Source: Aphanizomenon flos-aquae FACHB-1287 (lineage in GTDB: Bacteria; Cyanobacteriota; Cyanobacteriia; Cyanobacteriales; Nostocaceae). From it: a stretch of 43,182 nt of DNA. The notes beneath the pieces are model-generated. The model made no database searches. It saw nothing but the letters and a program-made list of their open reading frames with translations, and was not told the origin of the DNA. This document shows positions 9,396 through 25,123 of this stretch, piece by piece. The number at the start of each line of letters is the position of its first letter. Position 1 is the first letter of the stretch. The translations under genes were made by a program, and so were the position numbers. Location of the stretch: NCBI RefSeq assembly GCF_014698755.1, contig NZ_JACJTO010000038.1:1-43182 (forward strand), written 5' to 3'.

Positions 9396-10517
9396 TTATT
9401 TCTCTGTGGCGATAATATGTAAATCTATGTTTTGATTTCTGATTAACTCTAGTAACCGTTGTGTAAAAGAGCGTTTAAAAAATGTTTTCCATCGGGGTTG
9501 ATGACTTTCACCAATAACTATTTGGGTGATATGATGGGTAGCAGCTACTTCAGCGATCGCTTGAGGAATCTTGTTATTTTTAATAATAATAAATTCACCG
9601 CCAAATTCTTGGCATAATTTCTCACAGGTATGAATATGTAAAGTTTCTTGTTTATTGAGAAATCGTTCAGGGTCAGCAATGAATACAGTATATAATTTAG
9701 CGTTCATATAGTTGGCGATTCGTGCCCCACGTCGTAATAATTGAATCGAATTTGGATAAGTAGATATACATATCAAAACTCGTTCATGAACATTCCAATT
9801 TTGCCCAGGAGAGGGGGTGGTATTGGCTTCTTCTTCTAGGGTATCTGCGACTTCTCTTAATGCTAATTCCCGCAAAGCGATGAGATTACGACGCTGAAAA
9901 AAGTTGTCTAAAGATTGTTGAATTTTATCAGGTGTATAAATTTTACCTTCTCGTAATCGTTCTTCTAAGGTTTCTGGAGTAACATCAACTACAACAACAG
10001 CATCAGCTTCATCTAGTAAACGATCTGGAATTCGTTCTCGGACTACGATACCTGTAATTCCTGCTACTAAATCGTTCAAACTTTCTAAATGTTGAATGTT
10101 GACTGTAGAGTAAACATCTATACTGGCTGCTAAAATTAATTCTACATCTTGATAGCGTTTTTCTCTAAGTGAACCGGGGGTATTTGTATGGGCTAATTCA
10201 TCAATTAAAACCAGTTGAGGGGAGCGTTTTAAAATTCCTTCGGTGTCCATTTCTTGAAGGTTGATATTTTTGTGAACAATGGTTTTTTTAGGAATTATCT
10301 CTAATCCTATGGCTTTTGTGGCCGTACCTTTACGTCCATGGGTTTCTAAAACACCAATTACAATATCAATACCTTCTTGTTTAAGTTGGTGTGCTTCTTC
10401 TAGCATTCTGTATGTTTTCCCGACTCCGGGAGCCATTCCAATGAATATTTTATGCTTTCCCCGTCGAGTTGGTGGGGTATGATCATTGTCAGGGACGGGG
10501 GTATTTAGATAAAACAT
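9396..10517 (-). CDS. kdpD: Short KdpD-type sensor (N-terminal domain plus Usp domain, no kinase)
   Basis: The 373-residue protein has the KdpD Walker A motif GMAPGVGKTYRM at residues 27-38, LIDELAHTNTPGS (Walker B region) and DVYSTVNIQHLESLN, then a Usp-like domain from about residue 245 ending with IVIGESHQP. The four-helix membrane part and histidine kinase of full KdpD are missing. Short KdpD proteins of about this size are known from Anabaena kdp operons, so this is the normal cyanobacterial form and not necessarily a truncation. No kdpABC lies in the window. Upstream there are only 6 bases between the ATG and a degenerate CRISPR repeat; GAGG in that repeat is the only Shine-Dalgarno-like sequence, about 14 bases from the ATG. 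Confidence 0.9.
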   Translation of the reverse strand: MFYLNTPVPDNDHTPPTRRGKHKIFIGMAPGVGKTYRMLEEAHQLKQEGIDIVIGVLETHGRKGTATKAIGLEIIPKKTIVHKNINLQEMDTEGILKRSPQLVLIDELAHTNTPGSLREKRYQDVELILAASIDVYSTVNIQHLESLNDLVAGITGIVVRERIPDRLLDEADAVVVVDVTPETLEERLREGKIYTPDKIQQSLDNFFQRRNLIALRELALREVADTLEEEANTTPSPGQNWNVHERVLICISTYPNSIQLLRRGARIANYMNAKLYTVFIADPERFLNKQETLHIHTCEKLCQEFGGEFIIIKNNKIPQAIAEVAATHHITQIVIGESHQPRWKTFFKRSFTQRLLELIRNQNIDLHIIATEK

Positions 10518-10523
10518 GATTTT

Positions 10524-13500
10524 GTTTGAATCCTCAATTATCTTAATTAGTAATTGTCACAATCTGCTTGATTTGATTTATTGTAATTCGTTTCAATCCT
10601 CAATATTTAAATCCTCAATGTTTCAATCCTCAATTACCTTAAATAGTAATTGTCACTTGGGATTTTTTCCATAATATCATAAAAACTATGTTTCAATCCT
10701 CAATTACCTTAAATAGTAATTGTCACAAAAGTGGCATATCGGTTAGCATAACAAGTTGTTTCAATCCTCAATTACCTTAAATAGTAATTGTCACAATTAC
10801 TCCTAAACTTAAAAAACTTGATTTACTTGTTTCAATCCTCAATTACCTTAAATAGTAATTGTCACCGCGGAACATTTTATTTTCTTCTGGATTAGTAGAA
10901 GTTTCAATCCTCAATTACCTTAAATAGTAATTGTCACCGGAAGAAAAGATTTAAAATGGTAAAAAGAAACAAAAAGTTTCAATCCTCAATTACCTTAAAT
11001 AGTAATTGTCACTTAAAGATCCCGGCAGCGAAGCTGGTCCATCTTTCGTTTCAATCCTCAATTACCTTAAATAGTAATTGTCACGCCTTTTGCCAGAAAT
11101 TAGATCATCCTTTGAATTGTTTCAATCCTCAATTACCTTAAATAGTAATTGTCACCTGGTTAATGCGCGATCGCTCTTGCGTAGAAGAATTAAGTTTCAA
11201 TCCTCAATTACCTTAAATAGTAATTGTCACTGGTTCTCAGGACTGCGGTGGCGACTTTGACGGTGACGGAAGTTTCAATCCTCAATTACCTTAAATAGTA
11301 ATTGTCACTTGCGCCACACAAATAAGATATTGCTTTCGATGCCGGTTTCAATCCTCAATTACCTTAAATAGTAATTGTCACAATGGTACAAAAATATAAA
11401 CAGAAAAAAGATAATTACGTTTCAATCCTCAATTACCTTAAATAGTAATTGTCACACCAAAATGTTTGTTAATAGCTTCAGTAGCGAAATTCAAGTTTCA
11501 ATCCTCAATTACCTTAAATAGTAATTGTCACTAGAAACATCTGCGGTAATTTGTTCAATCACAATCTGTTTCAATCCTCAATTACCTTAAATAGTAATTG
11601 TCACTTTCAGAGTCATAATTAGCGATCGCGTATTTAACGTTTCAATCCTCAATTACCTTAAATAGTAATTGTCACGATTGGCTCTCTAAAAATTTAGTCT
11701 GTCGGTATATTGGTTTCAATCCTCAATTACCTTAAATAGTAATTGTCACCAGTATACGGTAAACCTGGTAGTAGTAAATCTCATTTTTCGTTTCAATCCT
11801 CAATTACCTTAAATAGTAATTGTCACCTTTGGGCTCTAACCTTGCCCTCGAACTTTATTCGTTTCAATCCTCAATTACCTTAAATAGTAATTGTCACTTT
11901 GCAGGTATCCATGCCATCTTGCCACCCTCTTGTTTCAATCCTCAATTACCTTAAATAGTAATTGTCACTTCCATTTTCATTCTTTTACCATCTTTTCGAG
12001 AAAAGTTTCAATCCTCAATTACCTTAAATAGTAATTGTCACTATTTTTTCACCCCTGAAAATTTTCAGATTTGGTTTCAATCCTCAATTACCTTAAATAG
12101 TAATTGTCACATGTTCTTCTGTCATTTCTTCAGGTCTAAATGCCGTTTCAATCCTCAATTACCTTAAATAGTAATTGTCACCCCAGTGGTAAGCGCTCCT
12201 AATAAGGGTGTATCCCGTTTCAATCCTCAATTACCTTAAATAGTAATTGTCACCCCAGCCGGGTCATGGTAGCGTTAATCTCCGCACTGTTTCAATCCTC
12301 AATTACCTTAAATAGTAATTGTCACCTTAAATCAGAAGTTTTCTTCCCAATCTCTGGTAAGTTTCAATCCTCAATTACCTTAAATAGTAATTGTCACTTT
12401 ATCTTCAGCCTTAGAAGCAACAAAAATAGCAGGTTTCAATCCTCAATTACCTTAAATAGTAATTGTCACGCCTACTAAAATGATAAGTATTTTCAGGCAG
12501 TTTAGTTTCAATCCTCAATTACCTTAAATAGTAATTGTCACCAACAACAGAATCGCTTTTCTCCTTTACATTTTCTTGTGTTTCAATCCTCAATTACCTT
12601 AAATAGTAATTGTCACAGGCGAATGCAGCAGAATTAGAAAAAAAAGTAAGTTTCAATCCTCAATTACCTTAAATAGTAATTGTCACGATTTGAAATCCAA
12701 GAAGCATATTTATCTTGTTCGAGTTTCAATCCTCAATTACCTTAAATAGTAATTGTCACTTGAGATATGCAAAGTAAAATACTTTTCATATGTCGGTTTC
12801 AATCCTCAATTACCTTAAATAGTAATTGTCACAAATCTCTCTGTCTTTACCCCAAAAATTCACCGTAGGTTTCAATCCTCAATTACCTTAAATAGTAATT
12901 GTCACATTCCTTCGCTGCTTTCATAATATCGTTTTGTTCTCTGTTTCAATCCTCAATTACCTTAAATAGTAATTGTCACTGGTTCTTATAGAGGTCTAGA
13001 AATTTATGCTACCGTTTCAATCCTCAATTACCTTAAATAGTAATTGTCACTATACATCTCCCAATCCTCTCTAATAGGGACTATGTTTCAATCCTCAATT
13101 ACCTTAAATAGTAATTGTCACGTTTTTACCCGCATAAATTATTAGGTTTGCCGTTTCAATCCTCAATTACCTTAAATAGTAATTGTCACTTGCAATCGCC
13201 CGTAAGCAAGCTTGGATTTGATTTTTGATGTTTCAATCCTCAATTACCTTAAATAGTAATTGTCACTTTTCATTTCTTGCTGGATCTCTGGATAATATTG
13301 CGTTTCAATCCTCAATTACCTTAAATAGTAATTGTCACTCCCACCAGAAGGTGGTGCAGACTTACCTGTGTTTCAATCCTCAATTACCTTAAATAGTAAT
13401 TGTCACAAAAATGGCCAATATACTCATTACTTAAATAAGGTTTCAATCCTCAATTACCTTAAATAGTAATTGTCACAAAGAACCACACCCAACATAAGGA

Positions 13501-14643
13501 AGCCTGTAGCAAGTTTCAATCCTCAATTACCTTAAATAGTAATTGTCACTTGCGGTGAGCAAAGCCTAAGGAATTTAAATGAAGCTTTGGTTTCAATCCT
13601 CAATTACCTTAAATAGTAATTGTCACTACTCTCAAAAGACGCGGGAATTGCTCACGGGACGTTTCAATCCTCAATTACCTTAAATAGTAATTGTCACTTT
13701 TTATTCATTCTTCTAATATCTGCTATAATTTTCGGCCGTTTCAATCCTCAATTACCTTAAATAGTAATTGTCACCTGCTGAAAATTCAGAAAGCTACAAA
13801 GTTCAGTCAATTGTTTCAATCCTCAATTACCTTAAATAGTAATTGTCACTCCCCTGCTTGACCCTGTACTTAGCTGGTTTTTCGGTTTCAATCCTCAATT
13901 ACCTTAAATAGTAATTGTCACTATTAGCTAATCCTGTACCATAAATTCTAAAGAAATGTTTCAATCCTCAATTACCTTAAATAGTAATTGTCACAAAGCC
14001 TCTTGGATAGAGGCGATCGCATCCTTAATTAGTTTCAATCCTCAATTACCTTAAATAGTAATTGTCACATCCTATTCTAAATTTCTCAGAGTCCATCAAG
14101 TGTTTCAATCCTCAATTACCTTAAATAGTAATTGTCACTTCCTGTTTAGTGCTTGGCAGTGCATCTTAGCCTCCGTTTCAATCCTCAATTACCTTAAATA
14201 GTAATTGTCACAAATTTCTTTGTTATCTGCTGTTGACTTTAATAGTTTCAATCCTCAATTACCTTAAATAGTAATTGTCACTCCATTATGCAGTTCTAAC
14301 AAATAATTTGGCTGTAGTTTCAATCCTCAATTACCTTAAATAGTAATTGTCACTTTGGGATTGAAGAATTTGTGGGGTTTTGTGGACAGTTTCAATCCTC
14401 AATTACCTTAAATAGTAATTGTCACCTGCACAACAAATGGAAGACATGCCACCATATTGTGTTTCAATCCTCAATTACCTTAAATAGTAATTGTCACGCT
14501 TTTAGCTTCTGATTATCGAGAATTCCTTTTTTGTTTCAATCCTCAATTACCTTAAATAGTAATTGTCACAAATCATATCAAAAGGAAATTTATTTTTCCA
14601 AGCAGGGTTTCAATCCTCAATTACCTTAAATAGTAATTGTCAC
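10524..14643 (-). CRISPR. Type I-C-linked CRISPR array, 56 intact repeats plus degenerate trailer
   Basis: Fifty-six 37-base repeats, starting GTTTCAATCCTCAATTACC and ending AAATAGTAATTGTCAC on plus, run from 10620 to 14643 with 55 spacers of about 31-41 bases (mean period 72.5). All 56 look identical by eye. At the low-coordinate end there is a partial copy (10590-10619) and a degenerate copy at 10524-10560 with three changes. On the minus strand the repeat ends in ATTGAAAC, the usual type I 5' handle, and has a 7-bp stem CAATTAC/GTAATTG. With degeneracy at the low end and cas7 at the high end, transcription should be on minus from about 14.65 kb. No spacer was seen twice; several contain GCGATCGC. 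Confidence 0.98.
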
Positions 14644-14871: not shown

Positions 14872-15741
14872 TTAATCCAACCTTGTCAAAATCACACCAT
14901 CAGGTAGTTTAAATTCATCATCAAGCACCACCTGATAATCAGCAAAACTACGGGGTACATCAACATTAGACTTAATTTGCAGCTTATCAAACAACTTATG
15001 TACAGGAGCATTACCATATTTACTGGCATGACTAAATACATATAATCCACGACAAGCCATAAAACCCCGTGCAGAAGAGCGGTCAAACTCCCAAGCCTTA
15101 ATTAAAGCTTCCCAAAACAATTCTAAATCACGTTCAGTCACACAACCAGATTTTTCCGCCAAATGGGGATTATAAAAAACATGAGATTTATACAAACCAT
15201 AGGGTAAAACCTCCTTTCTCCCCATAGTTTTATTGTCCTTACCTTCTTTTTCGCTAGTAGCAGCACAGCGGGTAATGCTTACAGATTGAGGAAAAACAGG
15301 GTCAATACTACGAGAAAAACTAATTTGCATAGGTCCCCAAACTTGACCAGCTTTTAAACCAGTAGACAACACTCCTCCAAACATTCTTAAATCATAAAAG
15401 TTTTGTTGCATCCATTTTCCAACTTCTAATTGTTGTTCTGGAGTTCCTTCTTTTTCTGGTAAACCTACACCTACATAACCTCGGCGAATTTTCTCATTTA
15501 AAACACTTCCTTCTTCCACAAATATTTTATATTTTTCTGGTGTGGTTTCATCCTTACCAACCATTTCTACATAGTTTCTGACCTTGCGTTTTAAACAAGC
15601 ATCTGTTACTAAACCTTGATTAGTTTGGGGGTCAATTCTCGGTTGATTTCCTGCATCTGGATCACCATTAGGATTACCATCAAGACAGTCAAATAATAAA
15701 ATTGCATCGTGTTTTTTGGTGGGGTCTAAATGTAAAGTCAT
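14872..15741 (-). CDS. cas7: Type I-C Cascade backbone protein Cas7 (Csd2)
   Basis: Cas7 forms the helical backbone along the crRNA. The N-terminal signature LLFDCLDGNPNGDPDAGNQP is that of Csd2, followed by LVTDACLKRKVRNYVE, which fixes the subtype as I-C despite the 37-base repeat. Later segments FGGVLSTG, GPMQISFSRSIDPVFPQSVSI and SSARGFMACRGLYVF also match the family. Length (289 residues) is normal. It is the last cas gene on this strand, 148 bases after the cas8c remnant and next to the leader; cas4, cas1 and cas2, which normally follow, are absent. Confidence 0.95.
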   Translation of the reverse strand: MTLHLDPTKKHDAILLFDCLDGNPNGDPDAGNQPRIDPQTNQGLVTDACLKRKVRNYVEMVGKDETTPEKYKIFVEEGSVLNEKIRRGYVGVGLPEKEGTPEQQLEVGKWMQQNFYDLRMFGGVLSTGLKAGQVWGPMQISFSRSIDPVFPQSVSITRCAATSEKEGKDNKTMGRKEVLPYGLYKSHVFYNPHLAEKSGCVTERDLELFWEALIKAWEFDRSSARGFMACRGLYVFSHASKYGNAPVHKLFDKLQIKSNVDVPRSFADYQVVLDDEFKLPDGVILTRLD

Positions 15742-15889: not shown

Positions 15890-17104
15890 TTATTGTTCAG
15901 ATTTATCTTTAGGTTTAAAAAATTCGGCTCTTTTTTGCCACCAACCTTGAAAAAACAGAGCTTGAGATTTTAAATCTAGAACTTCTGGTAGCACAGAAAT
16001 ATCAAAATTCTCAAATTCTTCAGCTAGTAATAGCTTAATATATTTACTCTTTTCGGCTTCTAAATGATAATGAGTACAACCATGACAAAGCCGAGCGAAA
16101 ACTTGAGTAGGAGTGGAAGATAAAGCCTTGAGACTACGCATGACATTAGTATTATCTTCAGTCATACTTTGAGCATTAACTTGAGATTGGTGCATTAAAA
16201 ATGCAATTCTTCCTAATGTGTAAGCGGTATTCAAGCCAGGATGATCTGTGGGATACTTCATGTTATTGGTTGCTAAATAAAGTAATAAACCTTGTAGTCT
16301 AGGAAAGTAGAAATGTTTTCTAGATTGAGACGGGAAAGGATGAAAAGATTTTTCACTACATATCCTATCAATGATTCTGTAAGCGTATTCGTCAGGTAAT
16401 TTTTCACCCAAAAAAGCGGCTTTAATTAAAGCTGTCGCTATCCTGTCGGTGTTTTCCTTACTATGGTTTAAAAAAGCAGTATTACACAACATCCAAATAG
16501 GAACAGGTGACAAATTATTAACTTGCTGACATTGTATAAACTGTTGAAGAGAATCTTTAATTTTTTGGGTGGTAATTTCACTCCAACTACTAACAGAGAT
16601 TCTCCCTTTATTACCTTTAAGAACCGCTAAATAAAACTTGCTAGATTTGATATCCTCCAAATTAAATTTTTTAGGACTATGGGGACTAGCAAAGATAGAT
16701 TCAAAAGAGGGATTTTCCCAAATTTCAGGATTAATTCCTTCTCCTTCTTCTTCACCCCAATAGACAAAAACCTGACCCCCTAATTTATAGTGGTTTGTGT
16801 GAGAATTTAGTAAAAAATCCAAAGCTTTATGAAATCTCACAGCACTGGTAAAACCAATGGGGGCGTTAATATTTCCATCCCATCCATAAGACTGATAAGC
16901 AACTTTATCAAAACTACTAATAGCCGCTCCATAAGCCATAGAACCGGGAACACCTTTAACCATCATAGGCATTTTTCGCCCCATTGTTGGGGTCTTTTCA
17001 CCTGTTAATAAACAAACACCATCAATGCAGAAGTGTTGAATGTTAAGATTTTGAGGATTGTGTCCAAGTTGTGCATTGGTATTGGTGATACCAAATTTGA
17101 TCAA
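15890..17104 (-). pseudogene. cas8c: cas8c (csd1), C-terminal part after the insertion
   Basis: This reading frame (404 residues from a TTG inside the inserted element) carries the C-terminal two-thirds of Csd1/Cas8c: IDGVCLLTGEKTPTMG, MVKGVPGSMAYGAAISSFD, INAPIGFTSAVRFHKALDFLL and the helical end with GLNTAYTLGRIAFLMHQSQ. It is in the same frame as the N-terminal piece and separated from it by TGA, TAG and TAA, all inside a 165-bp insertion. Deleting the insertion plus one 9-bp duplicate restores one 554-residue Csd1. In type I-C a small Cas11c is made from an internal start in the 3' part of cas8c; that part is intact. Whether the two halves can work together is unknown. Confidence 0.88.
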
Positions 17105-17192
17105 TTAATGACTCTATTCTCAATAGACAATGGATTTTACCTGGGTAAAACGCAAAGATTGTAAAGTTTTATTGCAGGATTCAACACTTGTG
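17028..17192. mobile_element. 165-bp MITE-like insertion in cas8c with 9-bp target duplication
   Basis: The element starts CAGAAGTGTTGAAT (17028-17041) and ends ATTCAACACTTGTG (17179-17192); these are terminal inverted repeats matching at 13 of 14 positions. It is flanked on both sides by CCATCAATG (17019-17027 and 17193-17201), a perfect 9-bp direct repeat. It holds no complete gene, so it is non-autonomous. Its length, 165 bases, plus 9 is divisible by three. On the coding strand it introduces three in-frame stops. The parent IS family is not identified; families that duplicate 9 bp (such as IS1, IS903-type and IS4-type) are candidates. Confidence 0.88.
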
Positions 17193-17728
17193 CCATCAAT
17201 GGTATCTTGTTTACTAGCATAATAATTAGACCACCATTTTTTAATTGCGGGAATTTTAGTGATTTGTCCACCATTAAACATGAATACAAATCTATCCCGA
17301 TACCATTCTATATTTGCTGCTGGAGGATAGGCTATTACTAACTCTGCTGTGATTTTTTCCACAGTTGTATTAGTGACAAAATCATAAACAGCTTTTACAG
17401 CTTCATGATTAGTTTCTTGCAAACATCTTCCTAGAAGTTGTAGATACAAATCATGACGTTTTTCACCTCTGTCTCCAGCCCCAAAAACATATTCTCCCCC
17501 ATCATCAATTAATAGGGTTTCATCACCATTACGGCGCAAATCAGGGACTAGTATTTTTTTGCCGAATTTAGGTTTACTTTTATCACTTTTTCCTGGTGTT
17601 TCTAATACCATAAAAGTCTCTAAACTTAAATCAATTTGCCAATGACAAATACATTCACTAAAACCTGTTGGTGTGAGTTTATCATCCTGTTCTAAAGCAA
17701 TTCCTAGTTGATTTAATTCCTGTAACAT
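17120..17728 (-). pseudogene. cas8c: cas8c (csd1), N-terminal part before the insertion
   Basis: The 202-residue piece opens MLQELNQLGIALEQDDKLTP, the usual Csd1 N-terminus, and contains LVPDLRRNG and the segment YRDRFVFMFNGGQ, ending natively at KKWWSNYYASKQDTIDG. The last residues, from Thr after IDG onward, and the TGA stop come from the inserted element. In type I-C the Cas8c N-terminal domain recognises the PAM, so cutting it from the rest should impair interference unless the fragments associate. The start overlaps the cas5 stop by 16 bases, so it is translationally coupled to cas5. Confidence 0.88.
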
Positions 17729-18378
17729 ACTAGCCCATCTCTCATGACAAAGTGAGCAAATTCAGTAACAACATTACCCTTGACAAATCCCTCCGCAGTG
17801 CGCCAAGAAATAGCCCCTTTTTTATCAGGAATAAAGTGCATTTGTTTAGGCATTAATCCTAAATCAATTTCTCCTTTTAACTCTGGTGCGGGTTGATCTT
17901 CTGGGAGGGGAAAACCAAAATAAGCAATGTATTCTCGACAGCCAAAATAGGGCTGTTTAAAACATTGTCCTTTCTCAATTCTGCGCTTTATTTGAGCCGC
18001 ATATTTATTAGATAAATCTTCCTCTGTTTGTAAATCAAAGTTGAAATCAATGATATAGGCTATATCACGCAATATGACATGATTCCTTTGAGCGCGATCT
18101 CCTACGGCTGTGTATCCGCCTATACCATCATTTTTTATCCATTTTTTAACATTTCCATAGATTTGTTTGGACTGCACCATGTTACGCTGTATTGTAAATG
18201 TACTAATCGGATTCAAGACTATAATGTGATTGATTTTGTATTTAATCTCTGGTTTCCAGAAAATAGATTCCAGTACACCAATAGCCGCAGTAAAGGGCAT
18301 TACTTGGTAGCTGTGCGGTTCAGCCTTAAATTCTGGTCTTGTAAATAATGCCCACTCACCCCATAACTTAATCTGCAT
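17713..18378 (-). CDS. cas5: Type I-C crRNA-processing protein Cas5c (Cas5d)
   Basis: The 221-residue protein starts IKLWGEWALFTRPEFKAEPHSY and continues MPFTAAIGVLESIFWKPEIKY, the signature of Cas5 subtype I-C. In I-C systems, which lack Cas6, Cas5 cuts pre-crRNA in the repeat stem and then caps the crRNA 5' handle. The C-terminal half (CFKQPYFGCREYIAYF) matches the family. It heads the minus-strand cas operon and lies only 39 bases from the divergent cas3 start; no obvious Shine-Dalgarno precedes its ATG. Confidence 0.95.
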   Translation of the reverse strand: MQIKLWGEWALFTRPEFKAEPHSYQVMPFTAAIGVLESIFWKPEIKYKINHIIVLNPISTFTIQRNMVQSKQIYGNVKKWIKNDGIGGYTAVGDRAQRNHVILRDIAYIIDFNFDLQTEEDLSNKYAAQIKRRIEKGQCFKQPYFGCREYIAYFGFPLPEDQPAPELKGEIDLGLMPKQMHFIPDKKGAISWRTAEGFVKGNVVTEFAHFVMRDGLVCYRN

Positions 18379-24395: not shown

Positions 24396-24881
24396 TCATT
24401 CACCAACAATTGATAAAAGACGATTATAAAGAGAAGGATTAACCCAAAATTTAGCTGTATTGATTAAATCATCAAGAATAGGTTTAACTAATGGAATTAA
24501 TTTCTGACGTTTTGCCTCAATTAAAATTCCTAAAATACCTGTTATCTTCAAGTTATATTCTGTTGCTGTTTGTCTGCCTAATTGTTCATCTATAATTAGC
24601 CAATCTGCATTTAATTCTAATGCTAAAGCTATTACTGAAGATTCTCCTTCATCCAATTTGTTTTTTAAAGATTGTACTAAACTAACATTATTAACAGGTT
24701 TTACAATAATCCAGTCATAAGTTTTGACTTCTTTTGCTCCTGGTATTGAATCTCCCCATTGTGTTAATTCTTGAAAAACGGCTGATGATATGATAATTTC
24801 TCCATAAAGTTGTTCTAATAATTGGATTTTTCCTATAGCTGATAGATTAGTAATAGGTGAAGTATTGCTAACTATGATCAT
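24396..24881 (-). CDS. PIN-domain (DUF3368-type) putative toxin
   Basis: The 161-residue protein has the PIN/DUF3368 layout: N-terminal IIVSNTSPITNLSAIGKI, central EGESSVIALALELNADWLIIDEQLGRQTA, and ILGILIEAKRQKLIPLVKPILDDL. PIN proteins of this group are probable ribonucleases and act as toxins. The first acidic position is Asn in SNTSP; both Asn and Asp occur there in this family as I recall, so this does not by itself show inactivity. The gene lies 5 bases after the UPF0175 gene, as in a toxin-antitoxin operon. Confidence 0.85.
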   Translation of the reverse strand: MIIVSNTSPITNLSAIGKIQLLEQLYGEIIISSAVFQELTQWGDSIPGAKEVKTYDWIIVKPVNNVSLVQSLKNKLDEGESSVIALALELNADWLIIDEQLGRQTATEYNLKITGILGILIEAKRQKLIPLVKPILDDLINTAKFWVNPSLYNRLLSIVGE

Positions 24882-24886
24882 AAATT

Positions 24887-25123
24887 TTAGATGATTCCCA
24901 AGTTTTTTAAATCAACCTCTAAATCAGTTTCATCATAATGAATATTAATGTTTCTCATAGCTAATTCATTTTGAAATTGTAGTAAAGGCATTTTAGCCAG
25001 TTGAGATGCTTTACTGATACTAATTTTTTTCCTTTGAAATAAAAGGATAATCAATTCTAAAACTAATTCTTTTTCTGATAATCCACTGGCTTGAACAATA
25101 TCTTCAGAAATGACTAAGCTCAT
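24887..25123 (-). CDS. UPF0175 family small protein, putative antitoxin
   Basis: The 78-residue protein matches the UPF0175 pattern: SEKELVLELIILLFQRKKISISKASQLA...FQNELAMRNI, a ribbon or helix-turn-helix-like DNA-binding fold, ending DLEVDLKNLGII. Members are usually encoded just before a DUF3368 PIN protein, as here, and are taken to be its antitoxin and autoregulator. The ATG is preceded by a strong Shine-Dalgarno, AGGAGG, 6 bases upstream. Confidence 0.85.
   Translation of the reverse strand: MSLVISEDIVQASGLSEKELVLELIILLFQRKKISISKASQLAKMPLLQFQNELAMRNINIHYDETDLEVDLKNLGII

Follow-up and report, generated by a model that had tools for sequence, protein, structure and literature searches.

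Type I-C locus with a split cas8c gene

The window, that is, the whole stretch of 43,182 nucleotides that was analysed, holds a type I-C CRISPR-Cas locus in which cas8c is read as two pieces. We asked whether this is one gene broken by a mobile element, a gene pair or an error of assembly, and what the break means for type I-C interference. The host is a cyanobacterium of the Dolichospermum/Anabaena group, and its genome assembly is a draft of 4.35 Mb in 85 contigs, many of which end in an IS. The features of the locus are as follows.

10620..14643, minus strand: CRISPR array, 56 perfect 37-bp repeats and 55 spacers
14872..15741, minus strand: cas7 (csd2, type I-C), TIGR02589
15890..16261, minus strand: putative internal Cas11c frame, ATG at 16261, 123 aa, no clear Shine-Dalgarno
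15890..17104, minus strand: C-terminal cas8c fragment, longest ORF of 404 aa from TTG (17104) within the MITE, matching Pfam Cas_Csd1 182-559 of 559
17019..17027, no strand: target-site duplication CCATCAATG, left copy
17028..17192, no strand: MITE of 165 bp with IS10-like (IS4-family) ends, assigned from its genome copies and from ends the same as or similar to those of the IS
17028..17041, no strand: left terminal inverted repeat CAGAAGTGTTGAAT
17105-17107, 17114-17116 and 17120-17122, minus strand: three stops in the cas8c frame within the MITE
17120..17728, minus strand: N-terminal cas8c fragment, 202 aa, ending within the MITE, matching Pfam Cas_Csd1 positions 8-176 of 559
17179..17192, no strand: right terminal inverted repeat ATTCAACACTTGTG
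17193..17201, no strand: target-site duplication CCATCAATG, right copy
17713..18378, minus strand: cas5c, TIGR01876
18418..20451, plus strand: cas3, divergent, PADLOC Cas3c

The gene set cas3, cas5c, cas8c and cas7 is that of type I-C, with cas8c split by the MITE, and this is the single locus of its kind in the genome. Matches to Cas_Csd1 in the genome were confined to the two pieces, which make up one cas8c. No stops were found in the cas3, cas5c and cas7 frames. A cas1 beside the effector genes, which is usual although not essential for type I-C, is missing; the Cas1 sites of the genome lie on contigs C34, C9 and C67 and none on C32, the contig of the window. When the Cas1 and Cas4 proteins of this genome were used as queries, no match was obtained in the 13-kb loci of five of five named relatives. 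The strand of the array was assigned from the repeat ending ATTGAAAC, presumably its true orientation, and degenerate repeat copies lie directly outside the array at 10509-10604. An isolated stretch elsewhere in the genome (G000:C56:91626-91669), outside the array, has 85% identity to the I-C repeat. Near the CRISPR locus, a DUF3368 gene and its small upstream partner (window 24396-25123) both match PADLOC PDC-S70 and, from their sequences, look like a toxin-antitoxin-type pair.

A 165-bp element with a perfect 9-bp duplication interrupts cas8c

The preliminary description had placed a 165-bp MITE with a perfect 9-bp target duplication in cas8c, and its coordinates proved exact. In the whole window, no exact 9-mer other than CCATCAATG recurs at a spacing of 174. 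The 14-bp ends CAGAAGTGTTGAAT and ATTCAACACTTGTG are complementary at 13 of 14 positions, and a repeat finder returned 15-nt arms with 93% identity. The three in-frame stops that had been claimed are present, and at least one stop occurs in every one of the six frames across the 165 bp; the element is short, noncoding and bounded by terminal inverted repeats. It had also been noted that the insertion length keeps the frame. This is true but has no effect, because stops occur in all six frames, which also rules out an element that is translated and inserts protein into Cas8c. The RNA of the element with its duplications folded better than shuffled sequences (z -3.15), as expected from the inverted ends. 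Neither promoter-like nor terminator-like sites were found in 16900-17300.

Past the MITE, the cas8c frame picks up again at IDGVCLLTGE. The rejoining of the frame at the insertion, proposed from the window, agrees with five of five named relatives, which read SKQDT-xx-G(V/I)CLLTGE uninterrupted.

The element is present in many near-identical copies

A genome search for further copies, suggested in the preliminary description, revealed 18 full-length copies that are 98-100% identical, along with shorter partial copies. Five of the 18, including the one in cas8c, are identical, 12 are at 99% and one is at 98%. Perfect 9-bp duplications flank 16 of the 18, every one of different sequence; the exceptions are the copies L002 and L017. 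The insertion in cas8c is probably recent, given that four further copies have exactly its sequence and that the locus showed no second break.

The draft state of the assembly, with IS at the ends of many of its 85 contigs, leaves some room for an assembly or sequencing artefact. However, the insertion lies within a single 43-kb contig, where it interrupts the middle of cas8c, and its perfect duplication agrees in length with those at 15 other MITE copies, so we consider an artefact extremely unlikely.

Matches to the MITE (E 1e-5 or better) were obtained in 23 of 99 relatives, and none was obtained on phage or plasmid records at E 1e-5. Copies at 98-100% identity were observed in G005, G009 and G028, which represent other species and another genus. 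A query of 155 bp from the IS end, described below, had no match in G005, G007 and G009. Since G005 and G009 carry full MITE copies (98-100%) and the related IS was not found in them with this query, the distribution of sequences suggests that the MITE moved recently between genomes.

The insertion site is empty in relatives

We compared cas8c with that of related cyanobacteria, as had been proposed. The relatives comprised one genome per species, so the comparison concerns other species only. cas8c was uninterrupted and gap-free at the site in seven of seven distinct relatives read. A query made of the two flanks joined without the insert aligned across the junction at 11 of 11 loci, which come from seven distinct genomes, with 81-88% identity. 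The alignment was gapless in three of the seven genomes, and in the other four it contained 6 to 18 gap bases in total, none near the insertion site; the insertion-site sequence is carried once in all seven. A survey of 99 relatives supplied six of these genomes, with both cas8c flanks present and the element between them in none; the seventh, Sphaerospermopsis kisseleviana NIES-73, came from a named collection. None of the seven carried the element as cas8c sequence. An ancestral two-gene cas8c is ruled out by the uninterrupted site in seven of seven relatives.

Consequences for type I-C interference

These results are best explained by the transposition of a non-autonomous IS10-like (IS4-family) MITE into cas8c, with type I-C interference most likely lost, recently and within an IS10-like burst; we give this reading a probability of about 0.88. 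The transposition would have duplicated 9 bp and placed stop codons after native residue ~175 of the ~550-aa Cas8c, and the type I-C Cascade should no longer receive a large subunit of full length. In the Desulfovibrio vulgaris Cascade, as far as the account was available (PMC7684278), Cas8c is the large subunit, is placed to meet the PAM and is the proposed recruiter of Cas3; its N-terminus is flexible and a glycine loop forms the putative PAM site. The preliminary description had the cut separate a PAM-recognising N-terminal domain from the rest; this is tentative, as the passages on the D. vulgaris site carry no residue numbers. With this subunit missing, interference is expected to fail, and PAM-dependent target recognition and Cas3 recruitment by the type I-C system are most likely lost. 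cas5c, cas7, cas3, the possible Cas11c frame and the array would stay formally intact. The region expected to encode Cas11c had been described as untouched, and the putative frame with its ATG at 16261 does remain.

We also considered whether the N-terminal ~175 and C-terminal ~370 residues could be made separately and assemble into a working Cascade, the C-terminal piece being produced by reinitiation at TTG 17104 or from another start. The position of the break is compatible with such a split, as it corresponds to about residue 190 in a Cas8 of 582 aa with a solved structure, and a solved Cas8 chain of just 409 aa starts close to the break point. The flexible N-terminus described for the D. 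vulgaris protein (PMC7684278) fits as well, and both halves of cas8c are still open with the putative Cas11c frame untouched. On the other hand, the C-terminal piece has no convincing start: the TTG lies in the MITE and has no clear ribosome site, the next ATG is past the conserved LTGE motif, and a promoter-like site was not found in 16900-17300. At this site, cas8c is not divided into two genes in any of the seven relatives read. A functional split Cas8c is therefore very unlikely. The dN/dS of both cas8c halves was 0.15-0.34, a value without power on a present loss of function because it mostly reflects the history before the insertion. We retain disruption of cas8c by the MITE as the preferred reading.

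A related IS10-like element in the same genome

The preliminary description had proposed a search for a full IS with the same termini. A related IS is present whose left 21 bp are identical to the first 21 bp of the MITE, but no intact transposase copy was found among the IS copies read in this genome. The last 33 bp of the MITE differ from the IS right end at 8 positions, and beyond the ends the interiors of the two elements do not match. Because the interior and 8 of the last 33 bases differ, we regard the IS as a cousin of the MITE and not as its demonstrated parent. From 40 of 102 candidates, at least 28 distinct left and at least 37 distinct right IS ends were read; at least 20 pairs share an identical 9-bp duplication, and 8 left and 17 right ends were unpaired. 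Contigs break within the IS, and defects or deletions affect the longer copies that were read (L072, L088).

The transposase frame of the IS copy in L072 matched DDE_Tnp_1 (PF01609). A 1351-bp relative in genome G045, longer than that copy, has a stop-free transposase frame of 346 aa and a 9-bp duplication, GGTTTCATT; among the elements with related ends, an open transposase frame was found only in this relative. The 346-aa frame reads Y-x2-R-x3-E-x6-K, which we take to be a YREK-type motif. A 9-bp target duplication is typical of IS10, and one was found at no fewer than 20 IS pairs as well as at the 16 MITE copies. In Anabaena sp. WA102, the IS10-like group has the published inverted repeat ATTCAACAYTTCTG (PMC4907049), which recurs without a mismatch at the right end of the IS and the left end of the MITE and with one mismatch at the right end of the MITE. 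The DDE transposase with its YREK-type motif, the inverted repeat and the duplication place the family among IS10-like elements (IS4 family). The MITE could have been mobilised in trans by the transposase of such an IS.

Other cas genes at IS ends

The same family would have spread in a burst that includes the cas8c insertion, and longer copies of it also appear to split the type I-D cas1. In this cas1 the cut follows residue 55, with the IS left end terminating contig C67 and the IS right end terminating C34; both ends (L101 19722-19887 and L100) are flanked by the 9-bp duplication TATTTGAAT. The junction is spanned by no contig and rests on TATTTGAAT and the matching halves. The flanks of this gene lie side by side in 8 of 13 loci of relatives; in the other five, the right flank alone was matched (E 1e-5). 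In the I-D locus (L101 8380-19638), two csc2-csc1 (Cas7d-Cas5d) pairs were observed flanking cas3d and a PD-(D/E)XK-like gene.

A second cas1 (C9, L102 1-422) reaches an IS right end after ~100 residues. The cmr3 gene of a III-B locus (C72, L162 6630-7421) matches positions 124-366 of 367 only; it is without its N-terminal third, and its frame is open up to the adjoining IS left end. A search of the genome at E 10 did not recover the missing part of cmr3. Because neither the second cas1 nor cmr3 has a partner IS end that could be found, truncation by rearrangement is possible for both. Other CRISPR interference may persist in the cell, since the effector genes of the I-D locus and a csm locus of type III-A look intact.

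Distribution of insertions and defence genes

An ORF was counted as split if 45 or more codons stayed open on each side of the element, a criterion that does not strictly apply to L002 and L017, the two MITE copies that lack a duplication. By this count, 2 of the 18 MITE copies split an ORF, namely cas8c and a gene in L012. IS copies lay in ORFs in 11 of 20 cases, compared with 68 of 120 random points (Fisher p = 1; 40 regions on contigs drawn from 56 of 85); one IS pair with long open flanks (L079/L178) was left out of this count as its frames disagree. MITEs were rarer in ORFs, both against random points (p = 0.0003) and against the IS (p = 0.006), a difference that may reflect a younger IS burst or the purging of MITE insertions in genes.

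The same IS, with 9-bp duplications, splits four further genes (L022/L179, L026/L164, L074/L186 and L071/L170), whose pieces match models of type IIG restriction-modification, C5 methylase, ZorC-like and DndB-like proteins. Pieces of other split genes match PIN, histidine kinase and IS605-type transposase models, and one piece had no match. Among 12 split genes scanned, from which the MITE-split gene in L012 was left out, five matched PADLOC at E 1e-20 (4 of 11 without cas8c). A strong enrichment of insertions in defence genes was striking at first and was weakened by a random-ORF control, in which 99 PADLOC families were matched among 68 random ORF pieces of the genome. One-sided Fisher p ranged from 0.009 to 0.07 for 5/12 and from 0.03 to 0.15 for 4/11 in a comparison conceived after the hits had been seen and with an assumed count of 6 to 12 matching members among the random pieces. 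Targeting of defence genes by the IS is not established, because random genes of this genome match defence models too.

The disablement of I-C interference may have been favoured, for instance by self-targeting or by the benefit of admitting useful DNA, and not just tolerated. Such selection would be in keeping with the same IS family splitting the I-D cas1 and adjoining the truncated cmr3 and the second cas1, with the split genes of restriction-modification, methylase and ZorC-like type, and with a published survey that holds IS insertion into cas genes to be non-random, in the portion consulted (PMC10359306). However, the IS lies in genes as often as random points do, and the enrichment in defence models is unproven. 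A self-targeting spacer as the driver was rejected, as a comparison of the whole array with the genome revealed none; outside the contig of the array, the sole match below E 0.1 covered 36 repeat bases and 11 spacer bases. Spacer targets were also sought among phage records, with no array match at E 0.1. Selected loss of immunity is accordingly rather improbable in our judgement. It is likewise doubtful that the IS10-like family and the MITE quickly disabled the I-C effector, the I-D cas1, the III-B cmr3, the second cas1, restriction-modification and Zorya-like genes under genome-wide selection instead of random decay.

Comparison with known systems

The locus presents a CRISPR effector gene cut by a MITE, a case legible base by base, and the same transposon family has also split an adaptation gene at a second CRISPR locus of this genome. 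Whether bloom-forming cyanobacteria lose immunity under selection or by chance could be studied here in a natural setting, and the locus warns that an annotated I-C locus with a 55-spacer array need not equal active defence. In open-licence papers, taken without their supplements, we saw neither cas8c nor a cyanobacterial type I-C locus reported as the site of a MITE.

Natural insertions in cas genes are known from 163 IS cases and similar MITE events (Nat Commun 2023, PMC10359306), and the same article cites target duplications in 28 cases of an earlier screen. Those cases and ours have in common a transposon within a cas gene. The main text of that article, as available, has no mention of cas8, type I-C or cyanobacteria, and unlike the cases it describes, one IS/MITE family here meets several CRISPR loci of one genome.

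In Anabaena sp. 90, 147 MITEs of 77-541 bp are reported, 15 of them within broken ORFs (PMC3542288), compared with 2 of 18 here; as far as that article was seen, those MITEs are type II and have no related IS in the genome, whereas a related IS is present here. The IS10-like group of Anabaena sp. WA102 (PMC4907049) shares ATTCAACAYTTCTG with the right end of the IS and the left end of the MITE; its elements bear transposases, and MITEs go unmentioned in the text as seen. The D. vulgaris type I-C Cascade (PMC7684278, seen in part) has the same cas5c-cas8c-cas7 set and a possible internal Cas11c, the putative 123-aa frame being comparable in length to residues 489-612 in D. vulgaris; unlike in D. 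vulgaris, cas8c is broken here. The MITE insertion in cas8c is real and cleanly supported, and it belongs to a kind of event that is already known.
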